Part shown: positions 51,136 to 56,522 of the stretch, in pieces | Position numbering within the stretch: the first letter of the stretch is position 1 | Layout of the letters: every line of letters starts with the position of its first letter | Source of the DNA: Fibrobacter succinogenes | GTDB taxonomy: Bacteria; Fibrobacterota; Fibrobacteria; Fibrobacterales; Fibrobacteraceae | Length of the DNA stretch: 64,000 nucleotides | Direction: 5' to 3' | Assembly: GCA_902762305.1 (NCBI GenBank) | Contig: CACWNW010000008.1 | Span: forward strand, 1-64,000 | Position numbers and translations under genes: made by a program | Notes under the pieces: generated by a model | Databases searched by the model: none | What the model saw: only the letters and a program-made list of their open reading frames with translations | Told to the model about the DNA's origin: nothing

Positions 51136-52116
51136 ATGGATATAACATCGGGTACATACCGCCGTATTTTCGTGCTTGGCTCCGGCTTCAGCAAGTCTTT
51201 CTGCCCGCAGATGCCTACGCTCCGCGACCTGAACGAACGCATTCCTTTCGGGATATCGGACGACTTCCCGCATTTGCGGGAATATTGCAGGCGGTTCCTG
51301 GAACTCTGTAACGACCAGGCGGAATACCTGAACATCGAGACGCTCTCGACGTCGATCCTCTCGGCGCAGATTTTCCCGGGGGTGCGTGAGAGCCTGTACC
51401 ATTCGAGCCTGCGGTTCGAGCTTCTGCGCTTTATCGCGAACGAGATCCGGCGCGACCATGTCGTGGATTCCGCATCGGCGGCGGTGCTCCGCAAGTTCCT
51501 GTCGGGTTGCGAGAACTGCCCGAGCGAGGGCCTGCGCGATACCCTGCTGCTCAGTTTCAACTACGATACTCTCATCGAAGACGTGATTGCTGACGACCTC
51601 GAGATGGACGCGCGTGTGGCCGTGGATTACGGCGTGCGGATTGACCCTGCCGACCGCAGCGCGGTACGTGCGCCCCGTACGCTGACGATTGACCTCATCA
51701 AGCTGCACGGCTCGCTCAACTGGTACCCGGTGAAGGGGGCTTCCGACCCGCTCGACCTCAAGAACGTGTGCCAGGTGGAACCCTGCGACCGGAGTTTCCC
51801 CATCTACCGCGAGGATACGCCCATCTACATTCCGATGGCGCATGCGAAGGAATCGTTCTTGCGAGGGAGCCTTTTCAACCTGCTCTGGAGCAAGGCGGAC
51901 TATTACCTGAAAAATGCGCAGGAGATATACTTCCTGGGTTACGGGTTCCCGAAGACGGACATGAACAACCTGGAATTCCTGCTCCGTCACCGGACGCGCT
52001 TCAAGAAGGTGGTGGTTTTCGAGCCCGAGGGCTCTGCCGTGCTCGAAAGGCTGCGCTGCCTCCTTGGCGACCTTGTCGAAAGCCGCGACGCGAAGGAATA
52101 TTTGGCGAATTTTTAG
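51136..52116 (+). CDS. SIR2-like domain protein (SIR2_2)
   Basis: 326 residues, SIR2_2-type Rossmann domain. Visible are FVLGSGFSKSF (nucleotide-binding loop), LLSFNYDTLIED, KLHGSLNWY and FLGYGFPKTDMNNLEFLL, the usual block order of the family. Such domains bind or cleave NAD and occur in several anti-phage systems (Thoeris, DSR, pAgo partners), but also as lone proteins of unknown role. No defence partner lies beside it; upstream is the thioredoxin and downstream the flavin reductase. It could be a single-gene NADase-type defence or a housekeeping enzyme. Weak TATACA/TACATT near the start, no Shine-Dalgarno. Confidence 0.8.
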   Translation: MDITSGTYRRIFVLGSGFSKSFCPQMPTLRDLNERIPFGISDDFPHLREYCRRFLELCNDQAEYLNIETLSTSILSAQIFPGVRESLYHSSLRFELLRFIANEIRRDHVVDSASAAVLRKFLSGCENCPSEGLRDTLLLSFNYDTLIEDVIADDLEMDARVAVDYGVRIDPADRSAVRAPRTLTIDLIKLHGSLNWYPVKGASDPLDLKNVCQVEPCDRSFPIYREDTPIYIPMAHAKESFLRGSLFNLLWSKADYYLKNAQEIYFLGYGFPKTDMNNLEFLLRHRTRFKKVVVFEPEGSAVLERLRCLLGDLVESRDAKEYLANF

Positions 52117-52124
52117 AAAAAATC

Positions 52125-52158
52125 GGTGACATTTTTGCTTCCCTGGGGTGTTGTATAG
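52125..52158 (+). promoter_or_regulatory. Putative ECF-sigma promoter before the flavin reductase gene
   Basis: GGTGACATTTTTG, CTTCCCT and GTGTTGT lie in the order and spacing of the motif at 52803: exactly 23 nt separate the GGT and GTG parts. The -35-like part is GGTGACA and the -10-like part GTGTTGT. A Shine-Dalgarno AAAGGGAGG and the ATG at 52177 follow. Confidence 0.55.
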
Positions 52159-52176
52159 TAAAAAGGGAGGTCTTGC

Positions 52177-52776
52177 ATGAAAATCCTTATCTTGAACGCG
52201 AGCCCGCGCAGAAACGGCATCATTTCGCAGGCTGTGGAACGCTTTGCCGATGGCGCGACCAATTCACATGTGGAGGATTTCTCCGACAACACGCAGGTGG
52301 AAATCGTGAACGTGAACGACCTGAAGTTCGCCCCCTGCAAGGGATGCATGCAATGCCGCAACCGCGGGATATGCTGCATGCCGGTGGACGACGCGCACCG
52401 TGTCGCCGAGAAGATTTTCGGCTGTGACGTGCTGGTGGTCGCCGCTCCGGTATACTGGGGCAACATGCCCGGCACGCTCAAGACGCTTTTCGACCGCATG
52501 GTGTACGCGCTGATGGGCGAATCCAAGCTCGGGATCCCCAAGCCGCTCCACAAGGGCAAGGACGCCTATATAATTACGAGCTGCACGACCCCCTTCCCGT
52601 TCAATTTCTTCTGCAGGCAGACTTCCGGCATGGTGGCCGCCCTCAAGGAAATTCTCGGTACCGCGGGCTTCAAAATCCGCGGAAAAGTGGTAATTCCGGG
52701 CACCAAGGCCATTAAGGGCCTACCCGCGCATGCCGGAAAATGCGCTTACAGGCTCGGTATTTCGCTCGCTATGTAG
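52177..52776 (+). CDS. NAD(P)H-dependent FMN reductase / flavodoxin-fold oxidoreductase
   Basis: 199 residues. The N-terminus LILNASPRRNG is the FMN-phosphate loop of the FMN reductase family. Then KGCMQCRNRGICCM, a Cys-rich stretch, VVAAPVYWGNMPGTLKTLFDR (flavin-ring loop), and GTAGFKIRGKVVIPG. This family (iron-sulfur flavoprotein/WrbA-like) reduces quinones, metals or flavins; with several Cys it may have a redox or metal-sensing role. AAAGGGAGG gives an excellent Shine-Dalgarno. It is the only gene besides the ECF operon with the shared promoter motif, so it is a likely member of that regulon. Confidence 0.85.
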   Translation: MKILILNASPRRNGIISQAVERFADGATNSHVEDFSDNTQVEIVNVNDLKFAPCKGCMQCRNRGICCMPVDDAHRVAEKIFGCDVLVVAAPVYWGNMPGTLKTLFDRMVYALMGESKLGIPKPLHKGKDAYIITSCTTPFPFNFFCRQTSGMVAALKEILGTAGFKIRGKVVIPGTKAIKGLPAHAGKCAYRLGISLAM

Positions 52777-52802
52777 CCCGTACCAACTTTTTTTAAATTT
52801 GA

Positions 52803-52832
52803 GGTAACACTTTTGACTTCCCTAGGTGTTAC
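52803..52832 (+). promoter_or_regulatory. Putative autoregulatory ECF promoter/palindrome before the sigma gene
   Basis: GTAACAC (52804-52810) and GTGTTAC (52826-52832) form a perfect 7-bp inverted repeat across a 15-bp spacer with CTTCCCT. As a promoter: -35 GGTAACA, -10 GTGTTAC, ending 6 nt before the sigma-factor ATG, so the transcript could begin at the start codon. No Shine-Dalgarno at proper spacing is present. The same arrangement occurs at 52125. Confidence 0.6.
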
Positions 52833-52838
52833 AAAGGT

Positions 52839-53339
52839 ATGAAAGGCAAGAATACGGCGGATAGGCAGGAATTTTCGAGACTTTACGGGACGTACGCCCC
52901 GATGGTCTATCGTCGCTGCTACGCCCTCTTGAAGGATAGCGCCGAGGCCGAGGATATGGTGCAGGATGTTTTCCTCCGCATATTCGACCGCATGGATACG
53001 CTCGACATCTCGCAGCCGAGCAGCCTCCTGTGGAATACGGCGACGCGCCTCTGCCTGAATCGCATCCGCGACAAGCACCGCAGAGGGCTCGACGTGGATT
53101 CGAGCGAACTGCTCCTGAACATCGCCTGCATGGACGATGACCGAGATAGCGACGCGAAGGGCATACTTGACAGGCTCTTCTCGCGCGAACCGGAATCCAG
53201 CAGGACGATAGCGGTTCTCCACTATGTGGACTGCATGACCCTCGAAGAGACTGCCCGCGAGGTAAACTTGTCTGTTAGCGGCGTCCGCAAGCGTTTGCGC
53301 GGGCTGCAGGCCAAAATTAAGACCCTGGAGGTGAAGTGA
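52839..53339 (+). CDS. ECF-type RNA polymerase sigma factor
   Basis: 166 residues with sigma region 2 (YRRCYALLKDSAEAEDMVQDVFLRIF) and region 4 (LHYVDCMTLEETAREVNLSVSGVRKRLRGL), lacking regions 1 and 3 as ECF factors do. It directs RNA polymerase to specific promoters and is normally held by an anti-sigma factor. Its stop overlaps the next start as TGATG, so translation is coupled. The motif at 52803 suggests it activates its own operon and the flavin reductase. Possible target system: the caspase-solenoid gene third in the operon. Confidence 0.93.
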   Translation: MKGKNTADRQEFSRLYGTYAPMVYRRCYALLKDSAEAEDMVQDVFLRIFDRMDTLDISQPSSLLWNTATRLCLNRIRDKHRRGLDVDSSELLLNIACMDDDRDSDAKGILDRLFSREPESSRTIAVLHYVDCMTLEETAREVNLSVSGVRKRLRGLQAKIKTLEVK

Positions 53340-54124
53340 TGATTCCCGACTGGAAACTGGAAAGGTACTTGACAGGCGACCTGCCTGCCGAGGAAATGCG
53401 CGAGATTCGCGATATGGAGGCTACGGACGAGGTGTTCGCTGGCCGCGTGAAGTTGTTGCGCGAAGACAATGCGGCGATCCTCAAGAAATTGCCGTTCGAA
53501 AAGCTTTCGGAAAAGATTTCTGCGATGCCCGGACGCTCCAATGGTGCCGGCAACACGGTGCGCGTGAATTTCACGCTCGTGAAGTTTGCCGCTGCCGCAG
53601 CGCTCGTGCTTGCTGTCGTTACGGTGGCGCTCTTTAGCCAGCGCGATATTACGGTCCCTGCGCAGTCCGCGAATGGCACGATGGATGTCGCGATGGTTAC
53701 CGATGTGGAAAATGCCATGGGCGATACGCGCATCAAGGGTCTGGACGCCCGCATGGAAGTCTGGAAAAAGATTGGCGACAGTGCAGTGCAGATGTCCAAC
53801 CTGGACGAGGCCCGCGAAGGCGACGAAATCCAGCTCCGCTATTCTGTCCCGGAAAAATGTTTCGGCCTGCTTTTCAGCATGGACGGCAACGGGACCCTCA
53901 CGATGCACATGGCCGAAGGCAACAAGGCGATTGCGCTCGAACCGGGCAAGATGACGACCCTCCCGTTCGCCTACAAGCTGGATAATGCGCCGAAGTTCGA
54001 GAAGTTCTTCTTCTTGACATCGCGTGATAATTTCGAATTGGATGTGGCCGATGTGGATGCCATCCTCAAGCGTTCCGACATAAACAAGGTGAGCCTCTCG
54101 GTTCGCAAGGTGGAGGAAAAGTAA
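53339..54124 (+). CDS. Anti-sigma-factor-like membrane protein with DUF4384-like C-terminal domain
   Basis: 261 residues. N-terminal helix-rich part (about 1-65, LERYLTGDLPAEEMREIRDME) looks like a small anti-sigma zinc-less sigma-binding helix bundle. One membrane span follows (about 78-99, LVKFAAAAALVLAVVTVALF). The outer part (about 150-255) resembles DUF4384 (GDEIQLRYSVPEKCFGLLFSMDGNGTLTMH...FFFLTSRD), a domain often found with caspases and kinases in regulatory gene clusters (memory). Position, TGATG overlap with the sigma gene and membrane topology make it the cognate anti-sigma. GGAGG lies upstream of the ATG. The domain assignment is tentative. Confidence 0.7.
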   Translation: MIPDWKLERYLTGDLPAEEMREIRDMEATDEVFAGRVKLLREDNAAILKKLPFEKLSEKISAMPGRSNGAGNTVRVNFTLVKFAAAAALVLAVVTVALFSQRDITVPAQSANGTMDVAMVTDVENAMGDTRIKGLDARMEVWKKIGDSAVQMSNLDEAREGDEIQLRYSVPEKCFGLLFSMDGNGTLTMHMAEGNKAIALEPGKMTTLPFAYKLDNAPKFEKFFFLTSRDNFELDVADVDAILKRSDINKVSLSVRKVEEK

Positions 54125-54125
54125 C

Positions 54126-56522
54126 ATGATGAAGAGAGTTCTTGATTTTTTTGACGCGGCCTTGCTCCTGCCGCTGATGACCCTGGTTTTCGTATTTATC
54201 TTTGCGGCCCAGGTGAGCGCCGCTACCGAGAACGCCCGCATCAACCGCTATGTCATAGCTATCAGCGCGAATTACGGTGGAGATGGCCGCCCGACATTGC
54301 GCTATGCCGAAACGGACGCGAAGTCTTTTGCGAAGGTGCTTGGCGAAATGGGCGGCGTGCCGTCCCAGAACGTGGTGTTCGTGAAGGAACCTTCCATCAA
54401 GAATCTGGGGAACCAGCTGAACACTCTCGACGAGAAAATGAAGAGGGGCAAGTCCCCGAACGGGCGCGACGAGGTGCTGGTGTACTATAGCGGCCATGCC
54501 GACGAGAAGGGCCTGCGCCTGGGTAACGAAGTTTACGGCTGGAAGGAATTCCGCAAGCGTATCGACGCGCTGAATGCCGACGTGAAGATTGCCGTCATCG
54601 ACGCCTGCGGTTCGGGTGCGATTACGCGCCTCAAGGGCGGTGTGGCCGTGCCCGCGTTCATGGTGGACCAGAGCAGCGACATGAAGGGCTACGCGTTCAT
54701 CACGAGCAGCACGCAAGATGAATCTAGCCAGGAAAGCGACAAGCTCAAGGGTTCGTTCTTCACGCATTCGCTGGTGAGCGGCCTGCGTGGCGCGGGTGAC
54801 CTGAGCGGCGATGGCAAGGTCACCTTGTCCGAAGCTTACCAGTTTGCATTCAACGAGACTTTGCAGCGTACCGAGAAGACTCTTGGCGGTGCCCAGCATC
54901 CGAGCCGCGACATGAACCTCGCCGGTACGGGCGACGTGGTGATGACGGATCTCCGCAGCACGAGTGCGGGCCTCGATCTTGACGAAGACGTGGACGGACG
55001 CCTGTTCATCCGCGACAGCAGGGGCGAACTTGTGGCCGAACTCTTCAAGAAGGGCGGCCGCGCCATGAGCCTCGGGTTCCCTGCGGGCCGGTACAGCATC
55101 CGCCTGGAGCGCCCTGCGGAATACAGCGAAGCTATCGTGATCCTCCAGGATAATTACCGCGCAAGGCTTACGCACAGGCAGTTCGCTGCGGTGTCCGCCG
55201 AAAAGACGACCCTCCGCGGTGAAATCGGCGGGACAAGAAATTGCGAAAGCGGCGATACCATCGCATGCTCTCTCGATTCGCTCGACCATCACGGCAAATA
55301 CCGCGTGACCTTCAATGCGGTGGACAAGGATTCGGAACCGCGCAAGGGAATCCAGCTTGGTTTCTTCGTTGCGAAGGCTAGCGAAAATATGCTCGGTTCT
55401 CAGTTGAGCCTTATTGCGAATATCGCCCGCAAGGAAATGCGCGGCCTGCAAGTGACCGACGTCTACAACGGTGTGAACGGGAATTTCGAAGGCGCTCAGA
55501 TTAGCGGCGTGATGAACAAAGCAACGTCCTTCGAGGGCGTCCAGATTGCTTCTGTCCTGAACGTGGCCGGGAAAAAGTCGAAGGGTCTGCAGGTTTCGGG
55601 TACAATAAACATCGCCGCGGATTCCCTTTCGGGCATTCAGGTCGCGGCCGGCATCAACTATGCGAAGCAGGCCGATGTGCAGGTCGGTATAGTGAACGTC
55701 GCCCGCGAAACCAACGTTCAGGCGTCCGTGATGAACATTGCGAAGAAGGTCGATGGTTCGCAGATATCCGTGATGAATGTTGCCGGTGAAATGAATGGTC
55801 CCCAGATTTCCGTAATGAACATCGCGAAGAAGGTCGATGGTCCGCAGATATCCGTGATGAATATTGCCGGAAAAATCGAAGGCCCGCAGATGTCCGTGAT
55901 GAACATTGCCGGGAAAATCAACGGCCCGCAGCTTTCCCTCATGAATATCGCTGGCAAGTCGAAGGGCCGCCAGGTGGGCCTCCTCAATATCTGCGGTTAT
56001 TGCGAAGAGACTCCGGTTGGCCTTATCAGCCTCGTGGGGAACGGCGTGTGGAGTGTGACCGGGTCCCTGAACGAGATGGGCGCTTTGGACCTTTCGTTCC
56101 GCTTCGGCACACCTTATTTGTTCACTGCAATCGAAGGGACGCGCCTCTTCGAGAAGGGCACGGGATTTGGGCATTTCCAGGATACCTACGAATTCGGCCT
56201 GGGATTCGGAACGCAGTTCGGCTATTTCGGCAACCACTTCGAACTGGAATACATGTTCCTCGATGCCTTTGACCACTTTCGCACTGATAAAGACGAAGTG
56301 GAAGATAATTTCCATCACCGTTTGCGCCTAGGATTTGTCCATCGCCTGCTTCCTGGCTTCGGCCTGACTGTCGGCGGCACCCTGAACCTGGTGACCGAAG
56401 GTACTATGGACAAGGTTATCATCAAGCCCCTCGGCGATTACCACGACGATGTGAAAGTCAGGGGCCACAAGGCCCGCGTTTGGCCCGGGTTCTACGCTGG
56501 CCTGGTTGTCGGAAGGTTCTAG
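54126..56522 (+). CDS. Caspase-like protease fused to a beta-solenoid and outer-membrane barrel-like end
   Basis: 798 residues. Signal peptide or anchor (about 12-33). Residues 38-270 are a C14 caspase fold: NRYVIAISANYGG, LRYAETDAKSF, VYYSGHADEKG (His124) and KIAVIDACGSGA (Cys161), so the dyad is intact. A beta-sandwich (about 275-400) is followed by tandem 14-residue repeats, N.A....GPQ.SVM, about residues 430-635, resembling the LA_2272-type surface solenoid. The end (about 640-798) is rich in aromatic beta strands (GFGTQFGYFGNHFELEYMFL) and stops in Phe, as an outer-membrane barrel would. It is translated from an ATG with GGAGG upstream, directly behind the anti-sigma gene. Likely a surface or periplasmic stress-activated protease; substrate unknown. 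Confidence 0.8.
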   Translation: MMKRVLDFFDAALLLPLMTLVFVFIFAAQVSAATENARINRYVIAISANYGGDGRPTLRYAETDAKSFAKVLGEMGGVPSQNVVFVKEPSIKNLGNQLNTLDEKMKRGKSPNGRDEVLVYYSGHADEKGLRLGNEVYGWKEFRKRIDALNADVKIAVIDACGSGAITRLKGGVAVPAFMVDQSSDMKGYAFITSSTQDESSQESDKLKGSFFTHSLVSGLRGAGDLSGDGKVTLSEAYQFAFNETLQRTEKTLGGAQHPSRDMNLAGTGDVVMTDLRSTSAGLDLDEDVDGRLFIRDSRGELVAELFKKGGRAMSLGFPAGRYSIRLERPAEYSEAIVILQDNYRARLTHRQFAAVSAEKTTLRGEIGGTRNCESGDTIACSLDSLDHHGKYRVTFNAVDKDSEPRKGIQLGFFVAKASENMLGSQLSLIANIARKEMRGLQVTDVYNGVNGNFEGAQISGVMNKATSFEGVQIASVLNVAGKKSKGLQVSGTINIAADSLSGIQVAAGINYAKQADVQVGIVNVARETNVQASVMNIAKKVDGSQISVMNVAGEMNGPQISVMNIAKKVDGPQISVMNIAGKIEGPQMSVMNIAGKINGPQLSLMNIAGKSKGRQVGLLNICGYCEETPVGLISLVGNGVWSVTGSLNEMGALDLSFRFGTPYLFTAIEGTRLFEKGTGFGHFQDTYEFGLGFGTQFGYFGNHFELEYMFLDAFDHFRTDKDEVEDNFHHRLRLGFVHRLLPGFGLTVGGTLNLVTEGTMDKVIIKPLGDYHDDVKVRGHKARVWPGFYAGLVVGRF

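Follow-up and report, generated by a model that had tools for sequence, protein, structure and literature searches.

Two neighbouring transcription units, in a 64,000-nucleotide stretch of Fibrobacter succinogenes DNA (the window), are preceded by closely similar sequences: one unit encodes a flavin reductase, the other begins with the gene of an ECF sigma factor. The question is what this likeness signifies: a promoter common to both, the operator of some other regulator, or the trace of a duplication; and, if a promoter, which sigma factor reads it and what else it controls. From comparison of sequences across genomes we hold, with high confidence, that RNA polymerase with the sigma factor encoded from 52839 uses the sites as promoters, and that they would drive this factor's own operon and four further units.

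Two sites of one form

The features concerned are as follows.

52125..52152, plus strand: ECF-type promoter of the FMN reductase gene (-35 GGTGACA at 52125-52131, T-tract TTTTT, -10 GTGTT at 52148-52152)
About 52158-52160, plus strand: predicted transcription start of the FMN reductase promoter
52177..52776, plus strand: NAD(P)H-dependent FMN reductase/flavodoxin-fold protein, 199 aa (Pfam FMN_red 1.2e-18, Flavodoxin_2 8e-16)
52803..52830, plus strand: ECF-type autoregulatory promoter of the sigma operon (-35 GGTAACA at 52803-52809, CTTTT, -10 GTGTT at 52826-52830)

Site 1 reads GGTGACATTTTTGCTTCCCTGGGGTGTTGT at 52125 and site 2 GGTAACACTTTTGACTTCCCTAGGTGTTAC at 52803. The initial annotation had placed both there, with one and the same 23-nt distance between the two ends, and the window sequence bears this out; counted from the start of the left box to the start of the right, the distance corresponds to N16 between GGTRACA and GTGTT. 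The pattern GGTRACA-N16-GTGTTR matches the window twice where shuffled sequences predict 0.01 matches, and none of 100 shuffles gave two. The initial annotation noticed no other copy in the window, and the window indeed has these two matches only; the genome holds three more sites.

The heptamer CTTCCCT had also been taken as common to the two sites. It is present in each, in a register that is off by one base: it begins 13 bases from the start of the left box in one and 14 in the other. The window has five further copies, of which four share the strand and one is on the opposite strand, and the heptamer is not kept at the other targets; it was therefore ruled out as part of the motif. The additional elements that are conserved are a (C/T)TTTT tract right after the left box and a G preceding GTGTT. 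The consensus is thus asymmetric: GGTRACA(C/T)TTTT, a variable spacer, then GGTGTT.

Products of the sigma operon

The operon behind site 2 contains three genes.

52839..53339, plus strand: ECF sigma factor, 166 aa (Pfam region 2 at 15-81, region 4 at 118-154, no region 3)
53339..54124, plus strand: probable membrane anti-sigma factor, its ATG overlapping the sigma stop
54126..56522, plus strand: secreted caspase-domain protein (Pfam Peptidase_C14 7e-12; LA_2272-type repeats; C-terminal beta-barrel-like part)

The first product matches TIGR02937 at 70 bits, and its nearest solved relatives are SigW, SigE and SigH, with SigW scoring highest. The helix-turn-helix segment of region 4, SVSGVRKRL, is invariant in eight aligned orthologues, which would fit a nearly invariant -35 box. 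The second gene is probably that of the cognate anti-sigma factor, on the basis of its position, its membrane segment and an NCBIfam antisigma match (8e-5) that falls below the cut-off. Its product has an N-terminal PDWKLERYLxG segment conserved in the alignment, a hydrophobic stretch, and a C-terminal DUF4384-like domain; two relatives match DUF4384 weakly. In the third product the caspase dyad, H124/C161, is invariant in ten aligned sequences. Its structure model, of moderate quality (pLDDT 67), gives weak fold matches to caspases and to small outer-membrane barrels; the repeats are of the LA_2272/VC2662 type, and the C-terminal end is small-barrel-like. A secreted caspase of this form may be fixed in the outer membrane, and such a protein would be unusual.

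Conservation of the element with the sigma gene

Among 60 genomes the strict motif was found 92 times, and the reversed control not at all. It occurs in 40 of the 45 genomes with an orthologue of the sigma factor and in one of the 15 without (Fisher p 9e-9, a value that ignores shared ancestry); some of the distant genomes have their strict match away from the sigma gene. In nearly all Fibrobacter orthologues the site lies 8 nt before an ATG or GTG; in other families of Fibrobacterota the distance to the start is mostly 8-24 nt, and outside the phylum mostly larger, often 20-32 nt. The nearest public relative of the window's sigma factor, 97% identical, comes from a metagenome genome of Fibrobacter succinogenes.

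A search with the sigma alignment against one genome per species recovered relatives in Gemmatimonadota, Latescibacterota, Myxococcota, Acidobacteriota (Vicinamibacteria), Spirochaetes and others. At 27 loci outside Fibrobacterota, a perfect N16 site occurs within 150 nt upstream of the sigma gene in 16, and a site with at most one mismatch in 24; controls at the same 27 loci gave 0 for other gap lengths (2 at N18) and 0.025 for shuffles. Two relatives (L209, L210) have a gap of N15 instead of N16. The loci examined outside the phylum share the three-gene cassette, and the caspase domain was confirmed in four of them.

Probable further targets in the genome

A refined motif, GGTRACAYWTT-N12-GTGTT, was run against the window's own genome with up to two mismatches; the counts come from pattern searches, not from a weight-matrix scan. 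There were four perfect matches, one with one mismatch and six with two, against eight matches for the reversed control; the two-mismatch matches are at control level. A version with the gap set to N17, as a negative control, gave no match in this genome with 0-1 mismatch. One match, at C2:122180, has no T-tract and was taken as chance. The initial annotation had held that a scatter of the motif over positions unrelated to genes would speak against it; all five sites with 0-1 mismatch, spread over three contigs, lie just upstream of a gene or operon. Besides the two in the window they are:

C3:6754: site before a second, two-domain flavin reductase
C18:37748, minus strand: site before a TonB-dependent receptor and a lipoprotein
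C18:33484, minus strand: site before a DUF3450-ExbB-ExbB-ExbD-TonB-TPR operon

The initial annotation therefore missed a larger regulon, whose main members are the TonB2-type energiser and the TonB-dependent receptor.

The reductases allow an unbiased test of the target assignment: the proteins themselves served as queries, the motif was ignored, and the upstream DNA was scanned afterwards. The site, with no more than one mismatch, precedes all 16 FMN reductase genes, that of the window included, and eight of eight genes of the second reductase. Among the 16 are FMN reductases of nine genomes that share just 47-50% identity with the window's protein and lie away from the sigma gene (L265 and L266 in G019 and G027; L274-L282), and still have the promoter; flavodoxin-like reductases would accordingly be a recurring output of the regulon. 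The 16/16 result is the strongest single support for the proposed link between reductase and sigma factor; together with the sites found beside sigma relatives across phyla, it supports the original suggestion of an ECF promoter common to the flavin reductase and the sigma operon, which withstood each test that sequence analysis allowed. In the reductase genes 21-26 nt separate site and start, and a Shine-Dalgarno-like sequence, GGGAGG or AAAGG, is present.

Two observations concern the surroundings of these genes. The second flavin reductase is split into two frames in one genome (G005:C1:693094-694315, L290/L291), with the promoter site intact. The frame at 51136-52116, upstream of the FMN reductase here and also in G029 (L069 1937-2923), has no Pfam or NCBIfam match; by eye its product resembles SIR2-like proteins (GSGFSKSF, FNYDTLIE, KLHGSLNW).

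As to the TonB-linked targets, the TonB2-type order, DUF3450, long MotA/ExbB protein, ExbB, ExbD, TonB and TPR protein, was confirmed by domains in the relatives G014 and L070; the operon of the window's own genome (L090) was matched to these by ORF positions and start sequences only. DUF3450 genes in other families of Fibrobacterota are without the site, so the TonB2 link is established within Fibrobacter only.

The leaders of these targets have features of their own. Those of the TonB-dependent receptors would begin, at the predicted transcript start, with a strong hairpin, CAAATAGG-GATT-CCTATTTG, followed by a U-rich run (L090, 13749 to about 13700, minus strand; also L069, L071, L076, L083, L077 and L078); the leaders of L077 and L078 differ in sequence and would form a hairpin of the same shape. 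Folding z-scores were -2.4 to -4.6 in six of eight receptor leaders, and a 5' stabiliser or an attenuator is possible. Most of the DUF3450 and lipoprotein targets have, exactly 6 nt after GTGTT, an ATG with an immediate stop (L090, 9485 to 9440, minus strand, and 26 other sites); the stop is TAA in those 26 and TAG in the window's own genome. This could be a start-stop element, or just belong to a housekeeping promoter element, TGTAnnTTTG, that follows the ECF promoter on its downstream side.

Alternative accounts of the shared sequence

The likeness of the two window sites could have arisen by local duplication, with no regulatory meaning: they are about 650 bp apart and have CTTCCCT in common. 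Their flanks differ, however, and the motif is retained before unrelated operons and where the reductase sits elsewhere, with only the boxes and the T-tract kept; this pattern of conservation refutes duplication, which we give practically no weight. Much the same degree of disbelief, if not quite so extreme, attaches to the idea that a dimeric regulator binds GTAACAC-N15-GTGTTAC as an operator of two-fold symmetry. It takes its appeal from site 2, where GTAACAC at 52804-52810 pairs with GTGTTAC at 52826-52832 in the perfect 7-bp inverted repeat, 6 nt short of the sigma ATG, that the initial annotation correctly described; and 10 of the 40 sites before sigma genes have symmetric arms. Such a repeat is weak evidence: the window holds five perfect 7-bp repeats with a 15-nt gap, site 1 is asymmetric, and conservation does not extend to the symmetry. 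Across the 40 sigma sites the outer two pairs are retained in just 25 and 27. At the third position of the left arm 18 sites have A and 22 have G, against an unvarying T at the partner position, so that the change is never compensated; a search of these sites for compensated arm changes found none, and on that ground the operator was rejected. The asymmetric element agrees instead with a promoter whose -35 and -10 boxes an ECF holoenzyme recognises.

If the element is such a promoter, similarity by itself cannot name its reader. A different ECF or group-4 sigma factor might recognise it, the sigma operon being just one target among others, and the genome does contain a second sigma-like match (C3:125475, 20% identity). 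This we consider improbable, though less so than either account above. The constant companion of the motif across phyla is the sigma gene of this operon; genomes without an orthologue of it nearly all go without the strict motif, several of them having other ECF genes; and autoregulation is the usual pattern for ECF factors. We infer that it is the sigma factor of 52839, and no other, that reads the sites.

Probable start of the sigma transcript

At ECF promoters transcription starts about 6-8 nt downstream of the -10 box. At site 2 the sigma start codon, ATG at 52839, is exactly 8 nt downstream of GTGTT, so that transcription is expected to begin on the start codon, and the message for the sigma factor is probably leaderless. 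The position of the site relative to the start is fixed across the genus, with ATG and GTG exchanged in place, and a protein begun at M22, the next ATG in frame, would lose part of conserved region 2.

A second promoter element may stand at the same place.

52794..52801, plus strand: candidate housekeeping -7 element TAnnTTTG, TAAATTTG, overlapping the ECF promoter of the sigma operon

TAnnTTT occurs at a nearly constant place in 34 of 40 sigma promoters, as against 3 of 40 target promoters. Upstream of window genes it is found in 15 of 23 regions (6.4 in shuffles, 9 on the antisense strand), a modest enrichment. The pattern suggests a Bacteroidota-like housekeeping -7 element in Fibrobacter.

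A proposed course of events

The comparison, at the level of sequence, gives a promoter element with fixed spacing, a linkage to the sigma gene that crosses phyla, a target list, a cassette order and an intact caspase dyad. On the preferred reading, RNA polymerase with the ECF sigma factor would recognise a -35 GGTRACA with its T-tract and, across the fixed 16-nt gap, a -10 GTGTT. The sigma factor would thereby switch on its own operon (sigma factor, membrane anti-sigma factor, secreted caspase/beta-barrel protein); it would also activate the neighbouring FMN reductase and the second, two-domain flavin reductase, the TonB-dependent receptor with its lipoprotein, and the TonB2-type energising operon (DUF3450, two ExbB-like proteins, ExbD, TonB and TPR). 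An envelope signal would free the sigma factor from its anti-sigma factor, possibly through cleavage by the caspase. What the regulon brings about is most likely uptake at the outer membrane, coupled to the action of flavin redox enzymes.

A wider and more speculative scheme would make this a module common to several phyla: a secreted caspase-type protease, anchored in the outer membrane, senses an envelope or substrate signal, cleaves the DUF4384-like domain of the anti-sigma factor and so frees the sigma factor; in Fibrobacter the module would be wired to TonB2-type uptake and flavin reductases, with a leaderless sigma message. We regard the scheme in this full form as tentative, and on balance doubtful.

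Relation to known systems

Modules of the SigW/RpoE type are alike in their two-domain sigma factor, in a downstream membrane protein in anti-sigma position, and in a promoter of their own that combines an AAC/GAC-type -35 with a constant gap of 16 nt. They differ in that here the product of the third gene is secreted and joins a caspase domain to a C-terminal barrel, the promoter runs right up to the start codon, and the predicted regulon is centred on a TonB system and flavin reductases. FecI/FecR signalling likewise places a TonB-dependent receptor under control of an ECF factor, as is predicted here; however, Pfam searches found neither a FecR domain in the anti-sigma factor nor an N-terminal signalling domain in the receptor, and here the third gene of the operon encodes the caspase-barrel protein. 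In Vibrio the TonB2 system has the order ttpB2-ttpC2-exbB2-exbD2-tonB2-ttpD2 (PMC6957404), which is that of the target operon (DUF3450, long MotA/ExbB protein, ExbB, ExbD, TonB, TPR). Iron limitation induces the Vibrio operon, for which a Fur site is predicted (PMC6957404), whereas the target operon here has an ECF-type promoter.

Sigma-70/metacaspase operons were reported in 2012 by Asplund-Samuelsson et al. (PMC3501461) from Myxococcus, Anaeromyxobacter, Haliangium, Sorangium, Ralstonia and Fibrobacter, and the window's cassette is very likely the Fibrobacter operon of that report. The text consulted gives no promoter, regulon or mechanism; added here are the motif, its spacing, its conservation across phyla and the targets. 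Our search of the literature found no published promoter or regulon for sigma-metacaspase operons and no paper on Fibrobacter ECF promoters; the ECF classification may already number the group and list its motif.

Implications

Fibrobacter is a major rumen cellulose degrader. For this sigma factor the analysis provides a defined promoter element and a short, testable list of targets, from which a role in outer-membrane uptake, together with flavin redox enzymes, appears likely. Relatives of the sigma factor in at least five phyla adjoin a caspase-type gene; the role of this bacterial caspase homologue could thus be tested with a reporter.
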